Shown one piece after another: positions 3 to 36,825 of a stretch of 64,000 nt of DNA. Position 1 is the first letter of the stretch, and each line of letters opens with the position of its first letter. Origin of the DNA: Geobacter sp. (GTDB lineage Bacteria; Desulfobacterota; Desulfuromonadia; Geobacterales; Pseudopelobacteraceae); NCBI GenBank assembly GCA_009885845.1, contig VFJW01000037.1:1-64000 (forward strand), given 5' to 3'. Under the pieces are notes generated by a model. That model saw only the letters and a program-made list of their open reading frames with translations. It was not told the DNA's origin and did not search any database. The position numbers were made by a program, and so were the translations under genes.

Positions 3-344
3 GTGAGTTGTGCCGAGTGTCATGAGGATCAGCAAAAGGGAACCATGAAGGCGTTTGATGCCTTCAGCCACACACCATCGTTTGTCAAAAGCCATCGTTT
101 CTACGCGGCATCAGATGATCGGCTCTGCTCCACCTGTCACAGAGGCTCTTTCTGTACTGACTGCCATACCAACAAGGTTGAAACAAAACCGTCCACCATG
201 TACGGTAACCGGCCCGACCGGGAGATGCCGCACCGCGGGAACTTCATGACCATGCACAAGATCGAAGGCAAACTTGACCCGGCCAGTTGTTATCGCTGCC
301 ACGGCAGGACCAACAATGACCGCTGCGTGGCGTGTCACAGATAG
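3..344 (+). CDS. multiheme c-type cytochrome, 3' part only
   Basis: The frame runs in from the left edge of the window, so the GTG at base 3 is probably not the real start. The visible 113 residues hold five CxxCH haem-binding motifs (CAECH, CSTCH, CTDCH, CYRCH, CVACH), and additional His residues are available as distal ligands. It is therefore the C-terminal part of a periplasmic or secreted multiheme cytochrome. It ends 11 bases before the start codon of a second, larger cytochrome on the same strand, so the two are probably co-transcribed. The family cannot be named from this fragment. Confidence 0.85.
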   Translation: MSCAECHEDQQKGTMKAFDAFSHTPSFVKSHRFYAASDDRLCSTCHRGSFCTDCHTNKVETKPSTMYGNRPDREMPHRGNFMTMHKIEGKLDPASCYRCHGRTNNDRCVACHR

Positions 345-355
345 GGGAGAAAGTT

Positions 356-3091
356 ATGATTCTAGTGAGAAACGGCATAATTCTGCTCATGATCATTAAT
401 CTGTGGGGATGCAGCAAAGCAAATGAAAGTACAGTTACGCTCGATGCAACGGGAAAGCATCCCGCAGGATGGGCGGTCGCCACAACCGGCGGTCTGCATC
501 CGGCGGCGTATCAGACCAATAAAAGCGCCTGTATTGAATGCCACGGCAGTGCTCTGGACCCTCAATCAACAGGCGGTGTCAGCGGCATCAGTTGTTTTAG
601 TGCATCCCGCAGCGGAATCGAGTGTCATCCTGGTGGTCCATCCAGCCATCCGGTCGGCTGGAGTTCCCCTGACAGTCACGGCAGCGCTGCTAAAGCTGAT
701 GCACCCGGCCTGAACTATTGTACACAATGTCATGGCACTAATTTTACGGGTGGTACCGGAAAATCCTGTATGACATGCCATACCACAGCACCACATCCGA
801 CGACCCCATGGAGAGGAACAACTGCGACAGGAACGACCCACACAACGACTGCTACCGCTAACGCATCCGAATGTGCCCGGTGTCACCTTAACAACCTGCG
901 ACTTACCGTCCCCCAAACAGTCCCGGCCGGTTCGACACCCGACTGTTTTAACAGTACAATGTGCCATGGGGTGAGAAGCGGTCATCCTGCCGGGTGGCTT
1001 GCCGCCGGCAGTCACGGCAGTGCCGCCAAAACGACGCCATCCGCATCACAAGGGTTTACGTACTGCACACAATGTCATGGGACCGCTTTTGCCGGCGGTA
1101 TTGGCCTTTCATGTATGACGGCGACGTGCCACACTCCCGCTCCTCACCCGGTGGCTGCAAATTGGCGTTCGATCGGCACGGTCACTCATACGAACACCGA
1201 CGTGAATAATGCCGGAGTATGCACCCAATGTCATAATGCCACCCTGAAGAACCTGGCACAGCCATATCTGGCACGATTTGTTCCTGCCGGATCTTTCGTA
1301 GCGGGAACAGCCGGATGTTTCAACGGCACGCTCTGCCATGCCAACATAATTGCATTGAACAACTGCACCGTCTGTCACGGACCTCTTTCCACCACCGTTT
1401 TTAACTCACTGGCCGGGGTTACCGCACCAAGTGACTCTAAAGTTGGTACCCATATAAAACACTTGAACGCATCAATTCAAGCGACCGCCTATTCGTCCAA
1501 CATTGCCTGTTTGGAGTGCCATACGGTACCCGGCTCATCGACAATCTCCGGATCACACAGAAACGGTGTGAATGACATCGTTTTCGGCACACTGGCAAAA
1601 ACCGGCTCCTTGACGCCCACATATACTGCAGCAACCGGTGTGTGTGCAAACACCTACTGCCACGGGACGACACTGACCGGCGGTGGCTCCAACAAAGCTC
1701 CTGTCTGGAACCAGGCAAATTATCTGGCCACCGGATGCGCCACCTGTCATGGCTTCCCCCCGACGACGGCCAGCAACGGAGCAGCCGTGCATCCGGCAGA
1801 CAATGCCTGTTCAGGATGCCATACCCATGTTAATGCAACCAACAATGGCTTTACGACGCCCGTTCTGCACATTGACGGCAAAGTTGATGTGGCCGCCGGT
1901 GGCGGCAGCTGTATCACGTGCCATGCCTCAATTCAAACCGGAACTCACGGCACACCTCGTGATGCTGTTACCACTGAATTCGGCCTTGCGTGGGGTCACA
2001 AGAAGGCTGGACGCGGTGCAGTAACAGATGCTGATTGCATTGTCTGCCATCTTGAGGGTGATTTTGCATCCCAGGCTCCATCGGCAAAACATAGAGACGG
2101 TAACATCGACCTCCGTGACCCGGATGGCGCCGGTGAGACACCCATTACCACTATTTCCGGCGGCGTATTTACCTTTACCAAATTTGCAACATCGTATGCT
2201 GCCGGAAGCAGGACTTCTACCGGTCATACATCCAATACTGACATAGCAAACGTCATCAGCCAGAAGTTCTGCCTGGCCTGCCACGATGGTACCGGGGCCA
2301 CTAACACAACTGCCCGTTCCAACAATGGTGGCACAGGTACCGCAGCTATGCCCTGGGGTGGCATAGCGCTTGGTGCCGGTTACGTGGCTGTTGCCGACGC
2401 CATCGGCACCCAGGGCCTGGTCGACGTCAGGAAGCAATTCACCACCACAAACTCGTCGGTCCATCCGGTCACGGGGCCGCGTAACAAGGACTTTCCAACT
2501 GCTGCAAGGATGGCTGATCCCTACAAGCCCACCGGATCGAGAGGGACGTCGGGAATAAAATCTGACAGTGTGGTCATGAATTGCTTTGACTGTCACAACG
2601 TGTCCGGTGCAAGCCCGCTCACAACTCGTACAACAGCGGCGCACGGCAATGCGGTAACCGTACGCGGAACTACCTATGCGGCTAATCCGACGCTCTGCCT
2701 TGCGTGTCATTTGACGTATAATGTGACTAATACTCAGTTTCACGGTGCTGGATCAGCGTGGTCAGCAACAGGATCAAGCCACGGTACGGGCGTCGTAGGA
2801 AATTGTCATTACTGTCATGGAAGCAATACCAATGCGACAAAACCGGCGCGGCCCAGACCCGCCCAGGATTACCATGGCAGCAATTCACTGTATGGCGGCG
2901 GCATGTGGCCTACTGTCGGTTCACGGCCCTATGCCTTTATCAGAGGTTGGAGCGGAACCGCTTATCACAGGCCGTTCAGGTCTTCTGAATTCACTGCCGG
3001 CAGTGCTACCTGCGGTACCGGAGCCTGTCCAGGTGGTGGTCAGGTAGGTGATGGCAGTACCCGGACCTACACGCCCGGCGGCTCGTTTTAA
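356..3091 (+). CDS. large multiheme cytochrome c lipoprotein with mixed CxxCH, Cx4CH and Cx5CH sites
   Basis: A 911-residue protein. The ATG at 356 is preferred over the track start at 332 because AGGGGAGA lies just upstream and the product then begins with a lipoprotein signal ending LWGC. I count 16 CxxCH motifs plus two Cx4CH (CMTATCH, CANTYCH), two Cx5CH (CFNSTMCH, CFNGTLCH) and one possible Cx9CH, giving up to 21 haems. The pairing of a CxxxxCHG with a later W and CxxCHGxPP resembles the Geobacter CxxxxCH/CxxCH domain (TIGR01904 type). It is probably an outer-surface or periplasmic electron-transfer lipoprotein. It follows another cytochrome and precedes a repeat element and a hairpin terminator. 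Confidence 0.88.
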   Translation: MILVRNGIILLMIINLWGCSKANESTVTLDATGKHPAGWAVATTGGLHPAAYQTNKSACIECHGSALDPQSTGGVSGISCFSASRSGIECHPGGPSSHPVGWSSPDSHGSAAKADAPGLNYCTQCHGTNFTGGTGKSCMTCHTTAPHPTTPWRGTTATGTTHTTTATANASECARCHLNNLRLTVPQTVPAGSTPDCFNSTMCHGVRSGHPAGWLAAGSHGSAAKTTPSASQGFTYCTQCHGTAFAGGIGLSCMTATCHTPAPHPVAANWRSIGTVTHTNTDVNNAGVCTQCHNATLKNLAQPYLARFVPAGSFVAGTAGCFNGTLCHANIIALNNCTVCHGPLSTTVFNSLAGVTAPSDSKVGTHIKHLNASIQATAYSSNIACLECHTVPGSSTISGSHRNGVNDIVFGTLAKTGSLTPTYTAATGVCANTYCHGTTLTGGGSNKAPVWNQANYLATGCATCHGFPPTTASNGAAVHPADNACSGCHTHVNATNNGFTTPVLHIDGKVDVAAGGGSCITCHASIQTGTHGTPRDAVTTEFGLAWGHKKAGRGAVTDADCIVCHLEGDFASQAPSAKHRDGNIDLRDPDGAGETPITTISGGVFTFTKFATSYAAGSRTSTGHTSNTDIANVISQKFCLACHDGTGATNTTARSNNGGTGTAAMPWGGIALGAGYVAVADAIGTQGLVDVRKQFTTTNSSVHPVTGPRNKDFPTAARMADPYKPTGSRGTSGIKSDSVVMNCFDCHNVSGASPLTTRTTAAHGNAVTVRGTTYAANPTLCLACHLTYNVTNTQFHGAGSAWSATGSSHGTGVVGNCHYCHGSNTNATKPARPRPAQDYHGSNSLYGGGMWPTVGSRPYAFIRGWSGTAYHRPFRSSEFTAGSATCGTGACPGGGQVGDGSTRTYTPGGSF

Positions 3092-22613: not shown

Positions 22614-22650
22614 AGAAAAAAACAGGGCGACAGAGATGCCTGTCGCCCTG
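22614..22650 (-). terminator. terminator of the cytochrome/FeS/NrfD operon
   Basis: On the minus strand CAGGGCGACAG, a 6-base loop and CTGTCGCCCTG (perfect 11-bp stem) are followed by TTTTTTTC. It lies 25 bases after the stop of the last NrfD gene and closes the six-gene respiratory transcript. Confidence 0.88.
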
Positions 22651-22674: not shown

Positions 22675-23970
22675 TCAGTGAGTAGATTCCTCTTTAAGAA
22701 AGGCAGGAATGAACATGTTGATGAAATAGAATAGCACGAACGGGGTTGCAATGACGGTGAGAGCACCGAAGAGCCCTTCTTTGAAGGTCTCAAGGTCATG
22801 CGGAATAATCGGCAGATGATAGTCCATGAAGCCTGAGAAGCTCAGAGAGAACGCCTGGCCGCCGATAACAACATTATAACGCATCATAAATACACCAAAC
22901 AGAACAAGCACGCAGGCGACGGTGGTACGCCGAACCGTACGCCCCGGCAGTGACATCATGATAAAGGGGAGTACATTACCGATGCCATACTGCAGAATGA
23001 ATATTTTGGTAAAGTCCCGCTCCATAATTACTTCACGGAGGATGTCCCATGATTTAACCTGGGTGTAGCCGCGGAAGATCAGGTCAAGTATTTCCAGTGT
23101 CATTGCGGCAATCATGAAATAGAGCAGGTAGTTGGAGGAGATCATCACCTCTGTATGTTTGGTTGCCTCCAGCTCTTCAGCATTCGGGGCGTCTGTGTCC
23201 GTCGCCCAGCGAGCCATTTTGCTTCTGGCCATATACTTACGGATTTCCTGAACGATTACATAGGTCAGGATACAGAGAGCAACTCCGGAAACTACTGCCG
23301 AACAGATGAAGATTACCGGCATAAGCGGAGTCATCCAGAGCGCATTGGCCTTGACTGACCCAAAAATGAACCCCGCATATCCGTGCAGGAAGCAGGCGAC
23401 GGGGATTCCTATTCCGGCCATGATTGTGCAGGCCTTGTGATCCTTTTCTACCGCCTCGGGGCTGATATCCCACGCGCCAAGAGTCATTGCCTGAAAGATC
23501 ATCATGCGTCCGTTGTCAATCATGCTGCGATTCTCCATCGCCATCAAACCCTGTGCCGTCTCGACGAAATATTTGCGGTACACCAGCCATATTTCGGTCG
23601 CAACAATCGCAGCGTACGTCAGAAAGACAATGCCGAAAGCCGAAATCGCGGAGGTAAAATGCGGCGTCATCAGGACATGGATACCTCGAAAAGGTTGCTG
23701 CAGATGCAGCATCAGGGGCATCATGGCTACCGGGAGCAGGGCGAACGAGAACACCAGGGAAAATCGGGCGATCTCCTTCAACTTTTCAATGCCAAAAACG
23801 TGGTAGAGAGATGAGAGTACAAAGGCACCGGCCACAAGACCGGTCATGAATGGATACATGACGATCTGGATCGACCAGTAGATGTACTCATTCGGCAATG
23901 TGAATAATTCCTTGATCGTCCATGCTTCGCCGTGAACTATCATAGCTTGTTGTGCGATTTGCTCTACCAT
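22675..23970 (-). CDS. NrfD/PsrC-type quinone-interacting membrane subunit (module B)
   Basis: A 431-residue integral membrane protein with about eight to ten hydrophobic helices and the NrfD-family start (EYIYWSIQIVMYPFMTGLVAGAFVLSSLYHVFG). NrfD subunits bind menaquinone/menaquinol and exchange electrons with an FeS partner. It begins 2 bases after the FeS gene and is the last gene of the module, as in Cbc-type menaquinol:cytochrome complexes of Geobacter. It is a paralogue by role and length of the gene at 25368-26660, though the two sequences clearly differ. Confidence 0.9.
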   Translation of the reverse strand: MVEQIAQQAMIVHGEAWTIKELFTLPNEYIYWSIQIVMYPFMTGLVAGAFVLSSLYHVFGIEKLKEIARFSLVFSFALLPVAMMPLMLHLQQPFRGIHVLMTPHFTSAISAFGIVFLTYAAIVATEIWLVYRKYFVETAQGLMAMENRSMIDNGRMMIFQAMTLGAWDISPEAVEKDHKACTIMAGIGIPVACFLHGYAGFIFGSVKANALWMTPLMPVIFICSAVVSGVALCILTYVIVQEIRKYMARSKMARWATDTDAPNAEELEATKHTEVMISSNYLLYFMIAAMTLEILDLIFRGYTQVKSWDILREVIMERDFTKIFILQYGIGNVLPFIMMSLPGRTVRRTTVACVLVLFGVFMMRYNVVIGGQAFSLSFSGFMDYHLPIIPHDLETFKEGLFGALTVIATPFVLFYFINMFIPAFLKEESTH

Positions 23971-23972
23971 GA

Positions 23973-24746
23973 CTAACGCACCTCCTGGGCAAGCCCGATA
24001 TAAAAGGCCTGGGGCTTGGTTCCGAATTCATCCTTCAATACACCGACCCGCTCATTCATGATGATCTTGGTGATTGGATCTTCCGGATCATGAATATTTC
24101 CCATTTTCCGGGCACCGAACGGGCAGGCATTGACACAGGCCGAATCCAGCCCCTTGCTGAGGCGGTGATAGCAGAAGGTACATTTGTCTACAACTTTGGC
24201 AATCGGGTGAAAAAAACGGGCTCCATATGGACATGCCATGATGCAATAGCCACAACCGATGCACCAGCTCCGGTCGACCAGAACAACCCCGTCGTCTGTT
24301 TTATAGGTAGCACCAACGGGGCAGACCTGCGTACAGGCCGGGGATGAACATTGATTGCACAGCTTGGGAACAAAAAATGCTTTCCCGACGTTTTTCGGAT
24401 CAATCTCCTTGAATTCACCACGTCCGAGATCGATGCGGGAATCTATGTATCCATAAAGCGCCGCTTTTGGACTGTCCACATACCGTTTGTCATCTTTCGT
24501 GTACACATATCGTTCTACCCAGGTACGCGAAACGTTGGCCTCGAACGGGATATCGTTTTCCGTCTTGCAAGCCTTGACGCAGAAGCCGCAGCCTACACAC
24601 TTGTTGGTATCAACCAGAAATGCCCACTGGATGTCCGGATTGGCGGCCAGCACCTTTTTCGGGTCGATCAGCGTCAAAGCTGAAACAGGCACAGAAGCAC
24701 CGGCTACAACCAGAATACATTTTTTCAGAAATTCTCGCCTCTCCAT
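23973..24746 (-). CDS. four-cluster ferredoxin-type FeS subunit (module B)
   Basis: A 257-residue protein with a Tat-like N-terminus (ERREFLKKC followed by a hydrophobic stretch), so it is probably exported folded to the periplasmic face. Cysteine groups for four [4Fe-4S] clusters are visible: CVGCGFCVKAC, CNQCSSPACTQVCPV, CIGCGYCIMACPYGAR and CTFC...CVNACPFGAR. It would link the NrfD subunit and the cytochrome. Its ATG overlaps the cytochrome stop (TAATG), so translation is coupled. Confidence 0.92.
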   Translation of the reverse strand: MERREFLKKCILVVAGASVPVSALTLIDPKKVLAANPDIQWAFLVDTNKCVGCGFCVKACKTENDIPFEANVSRTWVERYVYTKDDKRYVDSPKAALYGYIDSRIDLGRGEFKEIDPKNVGKAFFVPKLCNQCSSPACTQVCPVGATYKTDDGVVLVDRSWCIGCGYCIMACPYGARFFHPIAKVVDKCTFCYHRLSKGLDSACVNACPFGARKMGNIHDPEDPITKIIMNERVGVLKDEFGTKPQAFYIGLAQEVR

Positions 24747-25237
24747 TATTTCATTCCCTCCATACTGGGATTATGCGGATTGTGGCATTTAACGCATTCC
24801 ACACCGGTATTGTGTGTTTTAGGATTGATGCCCGGGATACGATGCCGCTCGCTTGTTGTATAGGGGAGGTTCGTGTGACAGCGCAGGCAAAGCTCACGAC
24901 TGCGGTCAATGGTCAGTTTCTCCGGATTTTCGGGATGGTTCATCACCGGGCCATGACAATCTTCACACGGTATTATTCCGTGAAGCTTTTCAGTACGAAC
25001 CTTGACAACGGCACCATGGCATGCGCTGCAGTATTCATGCATTCTCTCACGGCCTGAAGTTCCGTATTTTGCCGGTTGATTCTTCCATTCCATTTCGTTT
25101 GACTTTCGGTGGTACGAGTACATGAAACCCCTTTTCCCCGAACCAAAGTCGTTAGGAACATAGAAGAAGCGAAACAACAGTAACGCTGCTACACAAGCAA
25201 TGACCACGTACAGTGGTCGCCAGACATGACTTTTCAC
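24746..25237 (-). CDS. membrane-anchored tetraheme cytochrome c (module B)
   Basis: A 163-residue protein with one N-terminal membrane helix (PLYVVIACVAALLLFRFFY) and four haem motifs: CSACH, CEDCH, CLRCH and CVKCH. It is probably the electron outlet (or inlet) of the complex formed with the FeS and NrfD proteins encoded directly downstream. The same c-FeS-NrfD gene order is known from the Geobacter Cbc complexes (CbcSTU type); I infer the same role here. The upstream NrfD gene of module A ends 131 bases earlier. Confidence 0.9.
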   Translation of the reverse strand: MKSHVWRPLYVVIACVAALLLFRFFYVPNDFGSGKRGFMYSYHRKSNEMEWKNQPAKYGTSGRERMHEYCSACHGAVVKVRTEKLHGIIPCEDCHGPVMNHPENPEKLTIDRSRELCLRCHTNLPYTTSERHRIPGINPKTHNTGVECVKCHNPHNPSMEGMK

Positions 25238-25367
25238 TCTCTCTCCCTCTTGCCATCATATTCAGTGGCTGCTGAAATTGCCTAAAATGAACCCTGATAA
25301 AAACTGCGGTGAAAAATAGAACGAGATTTGTATTTTTGTCAACAACTAATCCACATGCAGTCTCAAA

Positions 25368-26660
25368 TTACTTCGCCGGTTCGGATTCAGAGTTGATTGT
25401 ATCGGGTTGCTGAACCAGGAACAGCTGGTCGCCAATATAGGAAGTAACACCGTCATCGGCAACATGGAAATCTCCATTCATGATCGGTATGGCAACCCGT
25501 AGCAGCATGGTGAACACAAACAGTCCGGTGGCCCAGATGCCCATCGAGAGGAGCAGTTCGATACCAGATGGCGCGTATTCGTAAATCTCGTGCAGGACAT
25601 CAGGAATGAAGCCGGGAATTACCAGCCCCATTCCCTTCTCGATATACACTCCGATGAAAACCAGGATGCACCCCATTACCAGAGTAACATTGTTCCTGCG
25701 TGTAGCAGGATTCAGGAAGAGAACAAAAGCGATGACATTGAAGATCATTGCCGTCCAGATCCAGGGGACCAGTGCTGAATGGCCATGCAGGCCCTGGAAA
25801 AGATACTGCACAGGAGCAAGATGAACCGACCCGGTGTAATATTCCTTGAACAGTTCTGCGCCGAGCAGGAGCAGGTTGATGAAAATAGCGTACGCGATTA
25901 TTTCAGCTACCTTCTGAATAGCCTCATCCTCGATTTTGAATTTTGTGTATTTGCGCACCAGAAAGAAGATCAGGATCATGAAGGCCGGCCCGGAACAAAA
26001 TGCTGAAGCCAGAAAACGCGGTACCAGGATTGAAGAGTTCCAAAACGGGCGGGCTCCAAGTCCGTTGTAGAGAAAGGCCGTAATCGTGTGGATCGATATC
26101 GCCGAAGGAATCGAAAGCAGCAGCAGCGGTGTGGTGAATTTTTTGTTCGGTTCGCGCTTGTAGTATTTGTTGTAGAGAATAAACACCGCAACCGTGAGGT
26201 TTATCATCAAATAGGTATTAAGCACCACCACATCCCATGCCAGCAGCGACTGAGGAAAGTTGAGCAGACCTATTTTTGGAATCAGGTGCCAGAAACGCTC
26301 CGGCCTGCCGATGTCCACCGTAACAAACATGAGGCACATGACGATTGCCGACACTGCCAGCAACTCCCCAAGTACCGCTATCTCCTTGATCGGCTTCCAG
26401 TGGTAGACGTAGGCCGGTATTACCAGCAGAACTGCCGCCGCAGCGACCCCGACCAGGAATGTGAAGTTGGAGATGTAAAAGCCCCATGAGACCTGATCCC
26501 GCATAGAAGTGACGATAAGGCCTTCATTCAACTGCTGCACATACGCATATGCACCTATAGCCATCAAACTAAGCAGGAAAAGAACCCAGCAGTAGTAGGC
26601 CTTGCTCCCCTTGGAAATCAGAACCAGCGTGCCCATATAAAAGTGCCAGATGTTTTTCAT
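25368..26660 (-). CDS. NrfD/PsrC-type quinone-interacting membrane subunit (module A)
   Basis: A 430-residue integral membrane protein with about nine to ten helices and the NrfD pattern (VSWGFYISNFTFLVGVAAAAVLLVIPAYVYHW). It probably exchanges electrons with menaquinol. It has a good ribosome site (CAGGGAGCAACC). It follows the FeS gene of its own module by 98 bases and is followed by the cytochrome gene of module B. Confidence 0.9.
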   Translation of the reverse strand: MKNIWHFYMGTLVLISKGSKAYYCWVLFLLSLMAIGAYAYVQQLNEGLIVTSMRDQVSWGFYISNFTFLVGVAAAAVLLVIPAYVYHWKPIKEIAVLGELLAVSAIVMCLMFVTVDIGRPERFWHLIPKIGLLNFPQSLLAWDVVVLNTYLMINLTVAVFILYNKYYKREPNKKFTTPLLLLSIPSAISIHTITAFLYNGLGARPFWNSSILVPRFLASAFCSGPAFMILIFFLVRKYTKFKIEDEAIQKVAEIIAYAIFINLLLLGAELFKEYYTGSVHLAPVQYLFQGLHGHSALVPWIWTAMIFNVIAFVLFLNPATRRNNVTLVMGCILVFIGVYIEKGMGLVIPGFIPDVLHEIYEYAPSGIELLLSMGIWATGLFVFTMLLRVAIPIMNGDFHVADDGVTSYIGDQLFLVQQPDTINSESEPAK

Positions 26661-26758
26661 GGTTGCTCCCTGAATGCGAATTAGTAAGTTAGAAATTATT
26701 TTCTGTGGTTCTCTGGCAGAGAATAATTTAGTTAACGCACTTATCCAGTTTATCTGGG

Positions 26759-27685
26759 CTAGGTTGCGTAAAAATAGTAAAATTTAGGTTGCGTGTTAAG
26801 GTCTTCCTTGAAGATAAAAACCCGTTTGTTCTCGATCAGGTAGCGGATCTCGCTTTCCGGATCGAGCAGATTGCCGAACTTGCGGGCGCCGACCGGGCAG
26901 ACCTCTGCACAGGCGGGATAACGGCCCGGTTGTTCACGGGTTCGCTGAATGCAGAAGGTACATTTCTCCACAACCCCTTTCGGGCGGGGACGATTGCCGA
27001 GATAATGGGTGTTTGGATTAACCTCTTTGGCGGCAATCACCGGTTTGGCCCAGTTAAAGTGCCGTGCACCGTACGGACAGGCCGCCATGCAGTATCGGCA
27101 GCCGATACACCAGTTGTAATCGACAACGACAATTCCGTCGTTTTCTTTCCAGGTGGCCTGAACCGGACAGACTTTGGTGCAGGGAGGTTTCTCGCACTGC
27201 TGGCACTGAACGGGCATATAAAAATGCCCTTTTTCCGGAACGGTTGCCGGATTGTAGTAATGCTCCGCATGTGACAGGTCAATACCCTTTTCCTTATCAA
27301 GCTGCATGACGCGAATCCATTGAACTTGCGGAGTACGTGACTGGTTATTCTCCGTAACACAGGCATACACGCAACGACGACACCCGATACATCGCGACAG
27401 GTCAAGACCGTAGCCGTAGCGGACTCCTTCAATCGGCGGGGTTGTCTTGACGGTAATCTTTTTGTCGTACCGTGTGCTGTATTCCTTTTCCAGACGGGCG
27501 ATGACACCTTTGAGTTCATCCTTTGAAAGTTCACGAAAATGCTTCTGGAAAAACTCCTCCCAGACGGAAGCTGATGCGTCTCTGCCAGGCATCGCAATGA
27601 GGCCAATGCCAGCCGCCAGGCCTTTCAACATCTTACGACGAGACTTATGCAGAACGTGATCATCACATTTTTTTATATCTGACAT
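26759..27685 (-). CDS. four-cluster ferredoxin-type FeS subunit (module A)
   Basis: A 308-residue protein with a twin-arginine signal (KSRRKMLKGLAAGIGLIAM), indicating Tat export. An extra segment of about 50 residues precedes the clusters compared with the module B protein. Four cluster motifs follow: CIGCRRCVYAC, CQQCEKPPCTKVCPV, CIGCRYCMAACPYGAR and CTFC...CAEVCPVGAR. It should connect the tetraheme cytochrome and the NrfD protein. It starts 36 bases after the cytochrome stop. Confidence 0.92.
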   Translation of the reverse strand: MSDIKKCDDHVLHKSRRKMLKGLAAGIGLIAMPGRDASASVWEEFFQKHFRELSKDELKGVIARLEKEYSTRYDKKITVKTTPPIEGVRYGYGLDLSRCIGCRRCVYACVTENNQSRTPQVQWIRVMQLDKEKGIDLSHAEHYYNPATVPEKGHFYMPVQCQQCEKPPCTKVCPVQATWKENDGIVVVDYNWCIGCRYCMAACPYGARHFNWAKPVIAAKEVNPNTHYLGNRPRPKGVVEKCTFCIQRTREQPGRYPACAEVCPVGARKFGNLLDPESEIRYLIENKRVFIFKEDLNTQPKFYYFYAT

Positions 27686-27721
27686 GAATCGTGCTCCCTG
27701 TGTACGAAATAGTTATCTGGT

Positions 27722-28339
27722 TCAGTGGCCGGCTTTCCCCGGTCTGTCCGGCGGCGGCATCGGCTTCAGCGCCTTAAACTTCGGATCGTGCGGATTATGG
27801 CAATGTACGCAGAGCAGATACTGCTTGTCTCCGTTCCAGTCACCGGTTCGCCTGCCGTGAACACCTACCTTCCAGTCACGGAACTTGTCGCCGTGGCACT
27901 GGCCGCAGAGCCGGAACGATTCGGTAAAATCAACAAGTTCACCGGAGACCAGCCGCAATTTGTCGCGATTCACCAGGTTATGGCAATCAGTACACCAGCG
28001 CTGACCTTCAGCATGATGAAGCACTATCTCGGTGTGGTATTCGGTTAGTGCCCGGGGCTTCGAATTGGGCTTCATGTATTTGTGGCACTGACTACAGGGA
28101 AAGGCTCCCTCTGTAAAGGGGGGTCGAGGAACCGCAAAGGTTTTTTCCTTTTGCCGATTTTTGATATCGTACGCAGGCTGCGGCTGCAGTTCCGCTGCAG
28201 ATTTCTCGGTGGTTATCAATTGCCCGGAGCGGTCAAATTCCTTAACCTTGGCGGCAAACACCGGTCCCACAGATAAAAACACTACTGACGCCATGGTGAG
28301 TAACACTATCTCGGGACGAGCAAAATACAGAATTTTCAT
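27722..28339 (-). CDS. periplasmic tetraheme cytochrome c (module A)
   Basis: A 205-residue protein with an N-terminal signal sequence (IVLLTMASVVFLSVGPVFA) and four haem motifs: CSQCH, CTDCH, CGQCH and CVHCH. The ending CVHCHNPHDPKFKALKPMPPP resembles the last haem of the module B cytochrome (CVKCHNPHNPS), so the two are probably related. It is the first gene of the six-gene minus-strand operon and diverges from the c7 cytochrome genes across a 330-base intergenic region. Confidence 0.9.
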   Translation of the reverse strand: MKILYFARPEIVLLTMASVVFLSVGPVFAAKVKEFDRSGQLITTEKSAAELQPQPAYDIKNRQKEKTFAVPRPPFTEGAFPCSQCHKYMKPNSKPRALTEYHTEIVLHHAEGQRWCTDCHNLVNRDKLRLVSGELVDFTESFRLCGQCHGDKFRDWKVGVHGRRTGDWNGDKQYLLCVHCHNPHDPKFKALKPMPPPDRPGKAGH

Positions 28340-28670
28340 CTCAACCTCAATGTCGTGAAATAGGGTATTGTTTATCCGTTATATCGCCTTTGCATAAACT
28401 TAGTGATATGAAAGTACAGACAATTTGTCAATACAAAAACGCTTTATAAATAACATGGTTTTGACAGCAGATCTACCGATGGTAACTGCCGGCGGGCCAA
28501 GGTGTTTTGAACGCGTAATGTCAAACGACTAATTATCATTTGCATCAGTTGATTACCATTGCAAATAACCTTATATGGAGTATATGAATGATGTCATATT
28601 GACTGTTGTGGTTTAGCAGGTAAATGGATATATACTGAGGTTGGAAATATAGCTCAAAAGGAGAACGCGT
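28340..28670. promoter_or_regulatory. divergent control region between the respiratory operon and the c7 cytochromes
   Basis: This 331-base gene-free stretch must hold the promoters of both the six-gene minus-strand operon and the plus-strand c7 gene. It is AT-rich. A perfect inverted repeat, ATTTGCA at 28538-28544 and TGCAAAT at 28560-28566, is its clearest element and could bind a dimeric regulator. AATTATCATTTGCAT is weakly like a Fur half-site. I could not assign a convincing -35/-10 pair. Confidence 0.45.
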
Positions 28671-28991
28671 ATGATCAGGTTTGCAGCAGGCGTCGTTGCG
28701 GTATCAATGTTTGTTTTCCATGCAGTCCCTGTCCAGGCGATCCAACCGGGGAAAACTGTCACATGGGAAACACCCATGGGCAAAGTAGTCTTCGACGGTA
28801 AAAACCATGCAGACGCAAAGGTCGGATGCCTGGATTGTCATTCAAAAATATTCAAAATGAAGAAGGGTTCGACAAAGTTTACAATGGCGGACATAAATGC
28901 AGGGAAATTCTGCGGAAAATGCCACAACGGCACACGGGCATTTGCCACAAATGATAAGGACAATTGCGAAATCTGTCACAAAAAGAAGTAA
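28671..28991 (+). CDS. c7-type triheme cytochrome, single domain
   Basis: A 106-residue periplasmic protein with a signal sequence (VVAVSMFVFHAVPVQA) and one c7 domain with three haem motifs (CLDCH, CGKCH, CEICH). The spacing and connecting sequence (KFTMADINAGKFCGKCHNGTRAFA) match the repeat unit of the 12-haem protein encoded 211 bases downstream, so this is a one-domain relative. It probably carries electrons in the periplasm. AAAAGGAG precedes the ATG. Confidence 0.93.
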   Translation: MIRFAAGVVAVSMFVFHAVPVQAIQPGKTVTWETPMGKVVFDGKNHADAKVGCLDCHSKIFKMKKGSTKFTMADINAGKFCGKCHNGTRAFATNDKDNCEICHKKK

Positions 28992-29073
28992 AACAGTGCT
29001 CTGGTTGTATACACTTGATACAGTCATATATGCCTGCCTGACTCGCATACAAGATCAAAAGATTTACCCTCCA

Positions 29074-29102
29074 GGGCAGCTCTCGTCGAGGCTGCCTTTT
29101 TT
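29074..29102 (+). terminator. terminator after the single-domain c7 cytochrome
   Basis: GGCAGC, an inner CTCG-T-CGAG pair and GCTGCC make a stem followed by TTTTTT. It separates the one-domain c7 gene from the 12-haem gene, so the latter probably has its own promoter or depends on readthrough. Confidence 0.75.
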
Positions 29103-29202
29103 GCGTGAGACTGCAGCATCAATTTACAATTGACGATTCCAATCCCGATATGTATAGTTTCCCGCTTGTATACGTTATTTTTTTAATCGAGGAGTCGGGG
29201 CA

Positions 29203-30228
29203 ATGCGAAAAATACTGGTACTTTCATCCCTCGTGCTTTTACTTCTGTCTGCTGTTGTTTGTGGGGCGGCCGAGTATAAGGATGTCACGTTTAGCTTTAA
29301 AAATGCCGGGCCGGTCGTATTCAACCATGAATTCCATCTTAAAAAATACAATAACAACTGTAAAGTCTGTCATGACGCGATCTACAGCCTGAAAAGCAAA
29401 AAACGCTTCACCATGGCCGAGATGGAAAAGACCAAATCATGCGGCGCGTGTCATAGCGGCGTAAAAGCATTCAGCGTTGCCACGGAAAAAGATTGTTCCC
29501 GTTGTCACAGCGGCAAACCACGCGATATTACCTACCAGATTAAAGGTCTCGGCATCTCGGTATTCAGCCACGCAACACACATAGCCAAAACCGGCGGCGC
29601 CTGTAGAGGATGTCACAACGGCATCGTCGTATCTGGCAAGGAAAAATCGGTGACTATGGCAGAAATGGAAAAAGGTCGCACCTGTGGGGCGTGCCATAAC
29701 GGAAAACGGGCTTTTGCGGTAACGGCCAACTGTGATCGCTGCCACAAGGGACTGAAACCAAAAGATATCACCTTCAACCTGAAAGGAGTTGCAGCGGCGA
29801 CGTTCAGTCATGAATTCCATACTCAGGCCTACAGCTGTAAAGATTGCCATACAAAAACATTCCCCTACAAAGTCGTTGTCGGCAAAGCCACCATGGATGA
29901 CATGGTCAAAGGTAAGTCCTGCGGCATCTGTCACAACGGAAAAGACGCCTTCGCATCTTCAGGAGATTGCGCGAAATGCCATAAAGGACTGAAACCTGCA
30001 ATTGTCACGTTCAAGACCGATGGCGGTGAAGCGGCATTCAGCCACGAATTCCATCTGCAGAGCTACAAATGTGTCGATTGCCACACCGGAATCTTCCCGT
30101 ACAAGGCCGGGGCACTGAAAGCCTCGATGAGTGACATGGAATCAGGGAAATCCTGCGGTGCCTGTCATAACAAAGGCAAGGATGCCTTCCCGGTACAGGG
30201 TGATTGCGGCAAGTGTCACAAGATGTAG
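29203..30228 (+). CDS. dodecaheme cytochrome of four tandem c7 domains
   Basis: A 341-residue periplasmic protein with a signal sequence and four consecutive c7 units of about 75-80 residues, each with three CxxCH motifs, 12 in total. Each unit repeats the pattern FSHEFH ... CxxCH ... M-x-DM-x-KGKSCGxCHNGKxAF ... CxxCH. The layout matches the c7 polymer cytochromes described from Geobacter sulfurreducens (GSU1996/OmcQ type), thought to be rod-like electron conduits or capacitors in the periplasm. The fourth unit has one extra residue after its second haem (CGACHNKGKDAF). Ribosome site: GAGGAG. Confidence 0.93.
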   Translation: MRKILVLSSLVLLLLSAVVCGAAEYKDVTFSFKNAGPVVFNHEFHLKKYNNNCKVCHDAIYSLKSKKRFTMAEMEKTKSCGACHSGVKAFSVATEKDCSRCHSGKPRDITYQIKGLGISVFSHATHIAKTGGACRGCHNGIVVSGKEKSVTMAEMEKGRTCGACHNGKRAFAVTANCDRCHKGLKPKDITFNLKGVAAATFSHEFHTQAYSCKDCHTKTFPYKVVVGKATMDDMVKGKSCGICHNGKDAFASSGDCAKCHKGLKPAIVTFKTDGGEAAFSHEFHLQSYKCVDCHTGIFPYKAGALKASMSDMESGKSCGACHNKGKDAFPVQGDCGKCHKM

Positions 30229-30258
30229 ATCCAGAGGTGCGATTTTGTCATACTAACC

Positions 30259-30303
30259 CGGCAATCCGGGATGCATGTCAAGGGCGTCCGTCCCGGATTG
30301 CCG
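30259..30303. repeat. perfect 13-bp inverted repeat downstream of the 12-haem cytochrome
   Basis: CGGCAATCCGGGA and TCCCGGATTGCCG are exact inverted copies around a 19-base loop, starting 31 bases after the stop codon. A T run is lacking, so it is either a weak terminator, an mRNA-stabilising hairpin or an extragenic palindrome. Confidence 0.6.
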
Positions 30304-30650
30304 ATGACCGTGCAATAATTGCTCACCGTATTTTCGCTGAAGCCTGACATATTGACTCTGCAATTACCCTCAACCATACGCCACTTGTTTCCGCGAACAT
30401 TCCGCCCGAGCAGTATCAAAAACTGCCTCCGGTCGTCATACCGATCTTTATCCCGCCGCAAAACCTATCCTGAATCAGTCTCCGACTCTTTACCTGTTAC
30501 AATCCTGAAAACGCAGTTTTCAACGCGTACCCGCGTGCCTTGATCGGCCCGCTGCCGCCTGCTGTCTGCACTTAGTGTATATGGCACAGTAATTCTCCGG
30601 GCAGCATGTACCAATGATGATACCTCCGGGAGTTTTTTTCGGGAGCTTCG

Positions 30651-30678
30651 TAGACAACTGTTTTTCCCGTGATATACT
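30651..30678 (+). promoter_or_regulatory. sigma-70-like promoter of the PpcA-like gene
   Basis: TAGACA and TATACT are separated by 16 bases and lie about 50 bases upstream of the start codon. The rest of the roughly 350 bases between the hairpin at 30259 and here shows no convincing gene. Confidence 0.45.
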
Positions 30679-30728
30679 TTATTTACTGCACTGAATGTGC
30701 AGAAAACCACCGCAAAGGAGAGCTACAC

Positions 30729-30995
30729 ATGAAGAGAATTATCATCGCAGTATTGTCAGTAACAGTTTTTGCCGGGTCAGCACTTGCCGCTGACGTGATG
30801 GAGATGAAAAAAGGTGTGACCTTTAAACACAAAGCGCATGCCGAAGCGCTTAAGGACTGCACAAAGTGCCATGAGAAAGCCGAGGGGGGTAAAATTGAAG
30901 GTTTCGGCAAAGATCTGGCCCACAAAAAATGCAAGGATTGCCACAGTGAAATGAAAAAGGGGCCAACAAACTGTAAAGGATGCCATTCCAAGTAG
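30729..30995 (+). CDS. PpcA-family triheme periplasmic cytochrome c7
   Basis: The ATG at 30729 is preferred over 30669 because AAAGGAG lies just upstream and a signal sequence (AVLSVTVFAGSALA) follows. The mature 68 residues closely follow PpcA-E of Geobacter: VTFKHKAHAEALKDCTKCHEK, GKIEGFGKDLAHKKCKDCH, EMKKGPTNCKGCH. Three bis-His haems are expected. Such proteins shuttle electrons, and possibly protons, from inner-membrane quinol oxidases to outer-membrane conduits. Here the gene stands directly upstream of a CbcL-like quinol-oxidising cytochrome, from which it is separated by a terminator. Confidence 0.95.
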   Translation: MKRIIIAVLSVTVFAGSALAADVMEMKKGVTFKHKAHAEALKDCTKCHEKAEGGKIEGFGKDLAHKKCKDCHSEMKKGPTNCKGCHSK

Positions 30996-31060
30996 CCTGG
31001 AAATCAGCTTCAAAGTTAGTATGTTCTATGGGAAACGCAAGTTAATCTAAGGGAATCAAA

Positions 31061-31095
31061 AAAAGGCGGCAGACTTTGCCTGCCGCCTTTTTTTC
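31061..31095 (+). terminator. terminator after the PpcA-like gene
   Basis: AGGCGGCAG and CTGCCGCCT form a 9-bp stem with a 7-base loop, flanked by an A run and followed by seven T. It can stop transcription in either direction. Confidence 0.88.
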
Positions 31096-31202
31096 ATCCG
31101 GCCGGTTGTGCTTTTCCGTTTTACTGGTAGCATTGATAAAGTTAACATCACTTCAGCTGTGTATAGAATGTTGCCGGAATAAATATGCAGGGAGGATTAA
31201 TA

Positions 31203-33080
31203 ATGTACTTTCGCATCATAGTACTGTTGTTTCTGTTATCACTGTCTTCAACGCCGGTAACCGCCGAACAGGGGATGGCCATAGACCCGGCCACCTGCCT
31301 GGGATGCCACAGCAATAAATTTTCCATTCACAACTTCGCCGCATCCGTCCACGGAAAAAACGCCTGCACCAGCTGCCATGTGGACATTATCGATCTCCCG
31401 AAGCATATGAAAAAGGAGATCAAGGTTCAGAAGGTACAGTGCGAGCGCTGCCATAAAAAGCAAAACTCCGAGCACTATGCCAGTGTACATGCCGAAAAAG
31501 GTGTGACCTGCGCTCAATGCCACACCGATATCCATACTCATAATTACTGGAAAAACGACAAGCGCATCGCTGTTGCCAAATGCGTCCAATGTCATGACCA
31601 GGAAGCGGTCTACCAGAAATCCATCCACGGCAAGGCGGTTGCGGCCGGCAATAAGGATTCCGCCGCCTGCCATGACTGTCATAATCTCCACGCCATTGAA
31701 AAACTGGCTGGCGCAAATGATCATAAAGGTCGCGAATTTCACACTAAAGTCTGCATGAAGTGCCACAGCGACAGTGCGATGATGGCCAGGAACAAGGTCA
31801 CAAATGTCGCGGTTAAATCATACATGGAGAGTTATCACGGCAAGAACTACCGCCTTAACAGTCCTGAAAAAGTTGCCGGTTGTGCCGATTGCCACACGGC
31901 ACATTCGGTATTACCGAAATCTGATCCGCAATCCAGTATCAATCCGGCAAATATGGTCAAACAATGTGCTTCATGCCATCCTAATGCAACTCCACTCTTT
32001 GCAAAGTTTTATGCACACGGCGAGATGACAGACCGGCATAAATATCCGGTCCTGTACTACACGTTTATCGCAATGACCGGACTGCTCCTTTCCACGTTTG
32101 CGGTGTTCTGGATTCACACGCTGCTATGGATGTTCCGCGGTTTTGCCGAGAATCGGGAGAAAGCTGACAAACTGGCCGCTGGAACGCATCATCATGTGCA
32201 CGTTACTGATGCAGGCACACATATGCATGTCATTCCCGACGGTCACAAGCAGTATCGACGCTTCAACCGGCTACATATCTTCCTGCATATTCTGGTCATC
32301 ACCAGCTTCCTGCTGCTTTCGCTGACCGGCCTGCCGCTCAAATTCAGCGGGCAGCAGTGGGCTAACTTCATGATGCAGTTCTACGGCGGGGCTGCAAATG
32401 CCGCACTGCTGCATCGCATCGGTGCCGTAATCACCTTTATTTATTTCGGGTCTGCCATTGCAATGAGTATCCACTTTCTGTTTATTAGAAAGGATATCAA
32501 AGGCAATCCGCTGCAGCGACTGTTCGGCCCGGATTCTCTCTGTTTCAATCTGCGCGATATCAAAGATGTATTTTTTATGGTCAGATGGTTCTTCTTCAAG
32601 GGCCCAAAACCAACCTTTGAACGCTGGACCTACTGGGAAAAATTCGATTTCGTCGCGGTCTTCTGGGGTATGTTCGCCATCGGCGGATCCGGCCTGATGC
32701 TCTGGTTCCCGGAATTCTTCGGTATGTTCCTGCCCGGATGGGCGTTCAATGTCGCAACCATTGTCCATTCTGACGAAGCGCTCCTTGCTACCGGCTTCAT
32801 CTTCACCGTTCATTTCTTCAACACCCACGGACGACCGGAGAAGTTTCCGATGGATTTTGTTATCTTCAACGGGCAAATCTCCAAGGAAGAGATGATTGAT
32901 GAGCGCGGCGATCAGTGGAAACGCTACCAGGAGGAGGGAATAACCGAGCAGTTTGCCTGCAAAAAGACCAGCGGCATACTGTATGACTTCCTGTTCAAGG
33001 GTTTTGGATTTACCGCGCTTTTAATCGGACTTGGACTGATGGTGCTGATGATTCTTGCCTTTCTGAGCGGCGGACACTGA
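31203..33080 (+). CDS. cbcL: CbcL-like inner-membrane cytochrome c/b fusion
   Basis: The ATG at 31203, preceded by GGAGGATTAATA, gives 625 residues starting with a signal helix. Residues about 25-290 hold nine CxxCH motifs (CLGCH, CTSCH, CERCH, CAQCH, CVQCH, CHDCH, CMKCH, CADCH, CASCH). The rest is a cytochrome b-like membrane domain with about five helices and conserved His (RLHIFLHILVITSFLLLSLTGLPLKF, LLHRIGAVITFIYFGSAIAMSIHFL, VHSDEALLATGFIFTVHFFNTH). Nine c haems fused to a b domain is the architecture of CbcL, the quinol oxidase needed by G. sulfurreducens for low-potential extracellular acceptors. The symbol rests on architecture, not on a database match. Confidence 0.82.
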   Translation: MYFRIIVLLFLLSLSSTPVTAEQGMAIDPATCLGCHSNKFSIHNFAASVHGKNACTSCHVDIIDLPKHMKKEIKVQKVQCERCHKKQNSEHYASVHAEKGVTCAQCHTDIHTHNYWKNDKRIAVAKCVQCHDQEAVYQKSIHGKAVAAGNKDSAACHDCHNLHAIEKLAGANDHKGREFHTKVCMKCHSDSAMMARNKVTNVAVKSYMESYHGKNYRLNSPEKVAGCADCHTAHSVLPKSDPQSSINPANMVKQCASCHPNATPLFAKFYAHGEMTDRHKYPVLYYTFIAMTGLLLSTFAVFWIHTLLWMFRGFAENREKADKLAAGTHHHVHVTDAGTHMHVIPDGHKQYRRFNRLHIFLHILVITSFLLLSLTGLPLKFSGQQWANFMMQFYGGAANAALLHRIGAVITFIYFGSAIAMSIHFLFIRKDIKGNPLQRLFGPDSLCFNLRDIKDVFFMVRWFFFKGPKPTFERWTYWEKFDFVAVFWGMFAIGGSGLMLWFPEFFGMFLPGWAFNVATIVHSDEALLATGFIFTVHFFNTHGRPEKFPMDFVIFNGQISKEEMIDERGDQWKRYQEEGITEQFACKKTSGILYDFLFKGFGFTALLIGLGLMVLMILAFLSGGH

Positions 33081-35289: not shown

Positions 35290-36825
35290 ATGGAACCCGT
35301 AAAAAAAATAAGTGCTGAAAAATACTACATGAACATCATCAGCTTACTGGGAATGCTCCTCTCTGCAATCTCAGGAATTGTCATAGTTCTGTTCCTCGCT
35401 TTGCAGGCGTTTAGAGGGTTTGAAAACCCGTACCTGGAAATAGTGACGTTTTTTGTTTTGCCTATGGGAGTATTATCCGGCGGCGTGCTAACCTACTTTG
35501 GTGCATGGCGCACCCGGAGCAAGCATCGCAGAAACCCCAATGTTGATCTTCCTCCGCTCCCTCGTCTCGACTTCAATGATCCGGACAAACTGCGCCTTGC
35601 TGGCTTTTTTGCCCTGGTAACCGTTGTGTTTTTCGCTATTATCGGAGTTGCAACAATCAAGGGGTTCGAATTTTCCGAATCAACCGCGTTCTGCGGTGAA
35701 GTCTGTCATGTGCCTATGGAGCCGGAACACACCGCCTGGGAACAATCACCTCACGCACGCGTACGCTGCGTCGAGTGTCATGTCGGTTCAGGACTTGATT
35801 ACTACGTCAAAGCCAAAATCAACGGAACCAGGCAGCTCTATTCCGTCCTGACTGGCACGTTCCCGACACCGATTCCAACCCCGGTTCACAACCTCCGCCC
35901 GGCACGAGGTACCTGCGAGCGCTGCCACTGGCCGGAAAAATTCATCTCGGCACGCCATAAATACATTTCTCATAACGCCCCCAACGAGACAAACACTCGT
36001 CGCGATATGCAGCTGCTGATCAAAATAGGCGGGACTCCGGGGGCTCCAAACAGTTCCGGTATCCACTGGCACATCGGCAAGGAAGTTGCCTATATCGCCA
36101 CGGACGAAAAACGGATGGAAATCCCCTATATTTCGGTCAAGAGAAATGACGGCAGTATCGATGAATTCGTCAACGTAGAAAAACCGGTATCAAAAGAGGA
36201 ATTGGCGAAACATGAAAAACGTGTCATGGACTGTATCGATTGTCACAACCGGCCGGCTCACTCATATAACCCCCCAAGCGATGAGCTGGATCACGCCTTT
36301 ACTGCAGGTAAGCTTGACCCATCCCTGCCGTTTGTGAAGAAACTTGCCGTTGAACTGCTGGAGCAGCCGTACAAGAGCAAGGAGGAAGCAACTGCGGCGA
36401 TTAACAAAGGAATTAACGAATATTATGCCAAAAACTACCCCGCCCTGGTCAAAACCAAGGACGCATCGATCAAACAGGCGGTTGAAGAGATTCAGCGCAT
36501 CTACGGCAGAAACTTTTTCCCCAAGATGAAAGTCGTCTGGAGCGCCTATCCGTCACATATGGGACACTTCTACTTCCCCGGATGTTTCCGCTGTCACGAC
36601 GGAAAGCATAAGAATGCCGCCGGCAAGCTTATTTCCAAGGATTGCAACCTGTGCCACATTGTTCTCAGCCAGACACAGGAGAATATCCCCAAAGGCACCC
36701 AGGTAAAAGATTTCGTACACCCGGTTGATATTGGCAACGAACTGACGAAAATGAACTGCAGTGATTGCCACGCCCCTGGCGGCCATGATGTTACCGGCGG
36801 AGAAGACGCGAAAAAGAAACACTAA
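35290..36825 (+). CDS. imcH: ImcH-like NapC/NirT-type inner-membrane cytochrome c
   Basis: A 511-residue protein with three N-terminal membrane helices (about 17-40, 50-70 and 101-123) and seven c-type haem sites: CGEVCH, CVECH, CERCH, CIDCH, CFRCH, CNLCH and CSDCH. The block around the first two haems (STAFCGEVCHVPMEPEHTAWEQSPHARVRCVECHVG) is the NapC/NirT quinol-oxidising signature. Size, haem number and three helices fit ImcH, required by G. sulfurreducens for high-potential extracellular acceptors. The first haem site is Cx3CH rather than CxxCH. A strong ribosome site (GAGGAGG) precedes the ATG. Confidence 0.85.
   Translation: MEPVKKISAEKYYMNIISLLGMLLSAISGIVIVLFLALQAFRGFENPYLEIVTFFVLPMGVLSGGVLTYFGAWRTRSKHRRNPNVDLPPLPRLDFNDPDKLRLAGFFALVTVVFFAIIGVATIKGFEFSESTAFCGEVCHVPMEPEHTAWEQSPHARVRCVECHVGSGLDYYVKAKINGTRQLYSVLTGTFPTPIPTPVHNLRPARGTCERCHWPEKFISARHKYISHNAPNETNTRRDMQLLIKIGGTPGAPNSSGIHWHIGKEVAYIATDEKRMEIPYISVKRNDGSIDEFVNVEKPVSKEELAKHEKRVMDCIDCHNRPAHSYNPPSDELDHAFTAGKLDPSLPFVKKLAVELLEQPYKSKEEATAAINKGINEYYAKNYPALVKTKDASIKQAVEEIQRIYGRNFFPKMKVVWSAYPSHMGHFYFPGCFRCHDGKHKNAAGKLISKDCNLCHIVLSQTQENIPKGTQVKDFVHPVDIGNELTKMNCSDCHAPGGHDVTGGEDAKKKH

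Follow-up and report, generated by a model that had tools for sequence, protein, structure and literature searches.

Two unlike cytochrome c, Fe-S protein and NrfD modules are joined in one six-gene locus of Geobacter sp. and recur as pairs in Desulfuromonadales and Nitrospirota

The stretch of 64,000 nucleotides of Geobacter sp. that was analyzed (contig VFJW01000037.1, positions 1 to 64,000; hereafter the window) carries a run of six genes on its minus strand, read from position 28339 to position 22675. They code for two successive modules, A and B, each composed of a tetraheme cytochrome c, an iron-sulfur (Fe-S) protein and a membrane protein of the NrfD family. The arrangement had been proposed from the letters of the DNA (the sequence-only reading), and all six open reading frames were confirmed. 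Module A codes for a periplasmic cytochrome of 205 residues with a predicted signal peptide (27722–28339), a DsrO-like Fe-S protein of 308 residues (26759–27685) and a DsrP-like NrfD protein (25368–26660). Module B codes for a cytochrome of 163 residues with an amino-terminal hydrophobic segment, whose GTG start is kept in relatives (24746–25237), an Fe-S protein of the NrfC/TtrB/DsrO superfamily with 257 residues (23973–24746) and a second NrfD protein (22675–23970). Each cytochrome has multiheme-c domains in Pfam and four CXXCH motifs. Each Fe-S protein features several 4Fe-4S domains, cysteines arranged as for four clusters and, close to the amino terminus, a motif of the twin-arginine translocation (Tat) type (SRRKMLK in A, ERREFLK in B). 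The amino-terminal extension of about 50 residues noticed earlier in the Fe-S protein of module A is real and general to its family, the first cluster cysteine having a median position of 98 among A-family proteins and of 53 among those of the B family. Both NrfD proteins are members of Pfam NrfD (PF03916; 142.1 bits for A and 118.2 bits for B, gathering cut-off 25.8). The locus likely codes for two separate, co-located three-subunit menaquinol-cytochrome c oxidoreductases that share one periplasmic cytochrome pool. Taken singly, the modules are of known kinds; what appears undescribed in the literature searched is their recurrent pairing, no account of which was found in a search that left most subscription journals outside its reach.

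The partners of the two modules are clearly unlike in sequence, as the sequence-only reading had stated, with pairwise identities of 20% for the NrfD proteins, 37% for the Fe-S proteins and 27% over 85 residues for the cytochromes. The DsrP model (NF045798, cut-off 350) gives 434.6 bits to NrfD A and 33.6 bits to NrfD B, while the DsrO model (NF045797) gives 182.3 bits to the Fe-S protein of module A, below its cut-off of 200. Module A is thus DsrOP-like with a tetraheme cytochrome, because its NrfD protein passes the DsrP cut-off and its Fe-S protein comes near to that of DsrO. Loci coding a tetraheme cytochrome with DsrO and DsrP homologs were named dsrOhPh-tetrahaem in cable bacteria (PMC13047784), from which modules of the A type have so far mainly been described, and a locus of this type was termed a “candidate alternative complex III” (PMC11976967). 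Module A shares with them this gene content outside dsrMKJ, and the NrfD A clade stands apart from canonical DsrP (Shimodaira-Hasegawa-like approximate likelihood ratio test support of 100 for the split; identity classes of 50–100% versus 36–49%). It differs in that it directly precedes a second, unlike module and has no TMH1 gene. Its assignment to the dsrOhPh-tetrahaem type is a putative one, made by gene content and profile scores. The likeness to DsrMKJOP lies in the DsrP score and in an Asp/Ser/Lys signature common to both; however, genes for DsrM, DsrK and DsrJ are not found beside module A, its cytochrome is tetraheme and not triheme, and its Fe-S protein stays below the DsrO cut-off. 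A search for dsrA in the genome did not detect it. Scores with the QrcD model (54.1 bits for A and 26.5 bits for B, cut-off 570) and with the NrfD model TIGR03148 (23.2 bits for A and 45.2 bits for B, cut-off 347.6) place neither protein in QrcABCD or NrfABCD. The same genome codes for a third NrfD protein, accompanied by an Fe-S gene (G000:C7:17674-18546, L003) and only 24–28% identical to module A proteins.

Module B has the gene order of the Geobacter CbcSTU (Cbc4) system, which comprises the 4-heme CbcS, an Fe-S protein and an NrfD-type protein (PMC10989804, PMC11434368), with the difference that module B is joined to module A. Its second and third products are accordingly regarded as putatively CbcT-like and CbcU-like. 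Stand-alone homologs of module B, about 63–73% identical, are found in Geobacterales and allied families. The count of six genes initially suggested Cbc6 (CbcMNOPQR), also a six-gene quinone:cytochrome c cluster of Geobacter; this candidate was ruled out, as Cbc6 includes a b-type cytochrome along with cytochromes of 10 and 5 hemes, whereas the locus codes for two 4-heme cytochromes and two NrfD proteins.

In NrfD-type proteins the quinone site lies at the periplasmic side and is defined by a conserved Ser, an Asp, Glu or His in transmembrane helix 2 and an Arg or Lys in transmembrane helix 8; ActF, the quinone-inactive subunit of alternative complex III, is devoid of the Ser (PMC8076601). Mutants of Qrc confirmed the role of the Ser and of a Tyr found between Fe-S cluster cysteines, the Arg being not essential (PMC13059093). 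The corresponding residues, with equivalences set by motif and position and not by structure superposition, are Asp116, Ser138 and Lys342 in NrfD A, invariant in 74 of 74 homologs, and His89, Ser107 and Arg364 in NrfD B, invariant in 111 of 111. The Tyr is present in 71 of 72 Fe-S proteins of the A family and in all 106 of the B family. AlphaFold models of the two NrfD proteins (mean pLDDT, the predicted local distance difference test, of 68 and 73, which is moderate confidence) are both nearest to ActC, with ActF less near. A sequence search of solved structures with A matched only ActC of alternative complex III, and the same search with B gave no match. Since the site residues are invariant and the models nearest to ActC, both modules should be quinone-active. 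A split like that of alternative complex III, with one quinone-inactive NrfD protein, is ruled out as the site residues are kept in both. The earlier suggestion that the modules might prefer different quinones or cytochromes agrees with the DsrP-type Asp/Ser/Lys set of A and the NrfD-type His/Ser/Arg set of B; sites built in these two ways could perhaps differ in quinone chemistry and potential.

The distribution of the modules was followed in 98 genomes of the order to which the window belongs and in a sample of 246 from Nitrospirota. Most genomes compared are metagenome bins, and kinship among the genomes inflates the linkage numbers. Of the 98 genomes, 71 hold a homolog of NrfD B and 24 a relative of NrfD A; 21 of the latter relatives are close, with at least 80% identity. 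In every genome with both close forms (19 of 19), B lies directly after A. The complete six-gene order is found at 17 loci of this sample (the end of the contig truncates the first gene of L062) and at 10 further Desulfuromonadales loci, and the carriers of the pair include the cultured Geobacter argillaceus ATCC BAA-1139 (L094). Most relatives with B have it alone; stand-alone B operons are frequent and occur, among others, in Geomonas, Citrifermentans bremense and Geobacter sp. OR-1. Among Nitrospirota, A is found in 40 genomes, B in 74 and both in 30; in 19 of these 30 the two are linked (within 6 kb on one strand), and in 17 of the 19 the order is reversed to B-A (for example, L126 and L149). 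This opposite order disfavors simple inheritance of the Desulfuromonadales arrangement. A model of random placement predicts linkage in about 0.2% of genomes; being simple and blind to shared ancestry, it does not warrant the use of an exact P value. At loci of other lineages (L264, L266, L267, L269, L277) the module after A is one (B') whose cytochrome is octaheme and whose NrfD protein is more distant, and at L282 a B-like module precedes A. The linkage state changes many times along the A tree, although contig ends account for a few of the “alone” states. The recurrence of pairing in two phyla and in both orders argues for a joint function, and modules A and B probably work side by side in the cell.

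Two further gene associations were seen in Nitrospirota. Nine loci (L244, L245, L246, L248, L251, L252, L255, L257 and L259) have near module A a trio coding for a 5-heme cytochrome of about 290 residues and for proteins of about 360 and 136 residues, and six (L245, L248, L249, L254, L257 and L259) have a 10–11-heme cytochrome of about 340 residues beside module B.

The two modules are inherited separably. At two loci (L076 and L077, of genomes G004 and G014) module A lies in a neighborhood like that of the window, adjoining the same aminotransferase, and B is cleanly absent; no B was found elsewhere in these two genomes. Both loci nest inside the A-B clade, from which loss of B is deduced. 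The NrfD B proteins of A-B loci in Desulfuromonadales make up a single clade of 31 that contains no stand-alone member, so that one joining event looks likely for these loci; it would have taken place in their ancestor. Within the genus, A of the window groups with L060, L061, L063 and L062 while its B groups with L078, L062, L072, L073 and L075. Approximately unbiased tests rejected the A grouping forced on the B data (p 7e-5) and the reverse (p 3e-4), with likelihood differences of 83 and 236 units; the p values are somewhat optimistic, the groups having been picked after the first trees were seen. The large trees were built by a quick method, and some of their branches are long. The A and B trees conflict, and therefore the modules were exchanged one at a time.

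These observations favor two separate complexes, because the quinone-site residues are kept in both modules, B was lost alone, B alone is widespread and the module trees conflict. In each of them the NrfD-type protein would bind menaquinone or menaquinol at the periplasmic side, the Tat-exported four-cluster Fe-S protein would take electrons from the quinone site and the periplasmic tetraheme cytochrome would hand them on to soluble cytochromes. Redox activity, its direction (quinol oxidation) and the physiological partner are deduced, the flow from menaquinol to the tetraheme cytochrome being presumed from what is known of the family. Between them, the two modules probably form a link between the menaquinone pool and those periplasmic cytochromes that take part in extracellular electron transfer. 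Several points weigh against this assignment: the modules could work toward quinone reduction, like Qrc; subunits of one complex would equally be expected to show such recurrent close linkage; the likeness of module B to CbcSTU was drawn solely from its gene order and number of hemes, and its name deduced from these; and the promoter-like element that precedes B (see below) is recognizable in only 6 of 19 loci of the genus and order, the window included. Routes from quinones to periplasmic cytochromes are only partly known in Geobacter-like bacteria and in Nitrospirota, and the paired unlike NrfD modules provide a concrete and testable gene set, with the cultured G. argillaceus as a carrier of the pair and the relatives that lost B as natural controls.

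The modules might instead differ in the direction of electron flow or in potential: one would oxidize menaquinol and supply periplasmic cytochromes, the other would use incoming electrons to reduce menaquinone, and the pair would act as a reversible gate or redox loop. Differences at helix 2 and at the gate (Asp and Lys in A, His and Arg in B) agree with this, as does the activity of Qrc, an NrfD-type complex that acts as a quinone reductase (PMC13059093); however, sequence gives no direction and both cytochromes are ordinary tetrahemes. This explanation is rather unlikely. The sequence-only reading had also offered one larger complex, which would unite all six proteins around two quinone-active sites and two NrfD subunits. 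Adjacency that recurs in two phyla and in both orders speaks for it, and so does the precedent of alternative complex III, where two NrfD subunits (ActC and ActF) are likewise encoded together and to whose ActC both models are nearest. Alternative complex III differs from the locus, which codes for two separate Fe-S proteins and has neither an ActB-like large subunit nor a degenerate NrfD protein. The persistence of A after loss of B, the frequency of B without A, the conflict of the module trees, the variable partner beside A (B or the octaheme B') and the retention of the quinone-site Ser in both NrfD proteins, unlike in ActF, disfavor such an assembly, which is improbable. Its bolder form, a complex or obligatory supercomplex in which two chemically different periplasmic-side quinone sites split or exchange menaquinol electrons between two tetraheme outlets, is quite improbable; if true, the A-B, B-A and A-B' pairings of Desulfuromonadales, Nitrospirota and other lineages would represent an unrecognized class of dual-NrfD respiratory machine. 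It is very unlikely that two respiratory cassettes drifted together once and were co-inherited with no functional link: the joining in Desulfuromonadales does look like one event, but A and B are linked again in the opposite order in Nitrospirota, A is joined to the octaheme B' elsewhere, and the simple chance model expects linkage in only about 0.2% of genomes. Of the distant origins without shared function that the sequence-only reading had set against its own proposal, the distant origins are borne out, while the linkage found again in a second phylum supports a shared function. A recent tandem duplication whose copies then diverged, which the earlier description “tandem duplicated” would imply, has the identical domain order of the modules in its favor and is rejected with near certainty, given the NrfD identity of 20%, the DsrP profile that takes in A and not B, and the wide distribution of each family on its own account: the modules belong to different NrfD subfamilies and were joined.

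The transcription signals agree with the earlier claim of one strong terminator at the end of the locus and none between the modules. An intrinsic terminator with a 12-bp stem followed by T7 lies after the sixth gene (22623–22650, minus strand), and a search of the window's 130-bp gap between A and B found none, only isolated hairpins being seen in a few relatives. In two relatives (L067 8436-8578 and L068 9074-9202) the A-B gap holds a strong hairpin (CATTGGCC...GGCCAATG) whose differences are compensatory and which has no T tail. The likely main promoter lies upstream of module A (28380–28470, approximate limits, minus strand), where all 11 aligned loci share an unchanged TTGACAA block. A promoter-like element, TTGACA...CGTTCTAT / TATTTT with a spacing of 18 (25313–25342, minus strand), is found between the modules; in the window and five relatives the gap shows TTGAC then GTTCTA at promoter-like spacing and at varying distances, and a looser promoter motif is expected by chance 0.08 times per 64 kb. 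The best reading is a predicted main transcript from the promoter before A, plus an additional B promoter in some species. The element conserved in some relatives suggests that module B may be transcribed separately as well; the promoter and separate regulation of B that the sequence-only reading had set against its own proposal are matched in part, the element being present before B in some relatives and recognizable at few loci.

A divergent cluster of cytochrome genes lies upstream of the locus (28671–33080, plus strand). It codes for a triheme c7-domain protein, for a 12-heme protein with four triheme nanowire domains, for a PpcA-like triheme cytochrome c7 (113 bits against a cut-off of 120) and for a 9-heme cytochrome with a hydrophobic carboxyl-terminal half, CbcL-like by architecture, which is kept near the operon in many relatives. 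These neighbors support a periplasmic or extracellular electron route. Further away, the window codes on the plus strand for a cytochrome of 16 hemes that bears the Geobacter CxxxxCH domain (332–3091) and for a NapC/NrfH-type multiheme protein with six CXXCH motifs (35290–36825).

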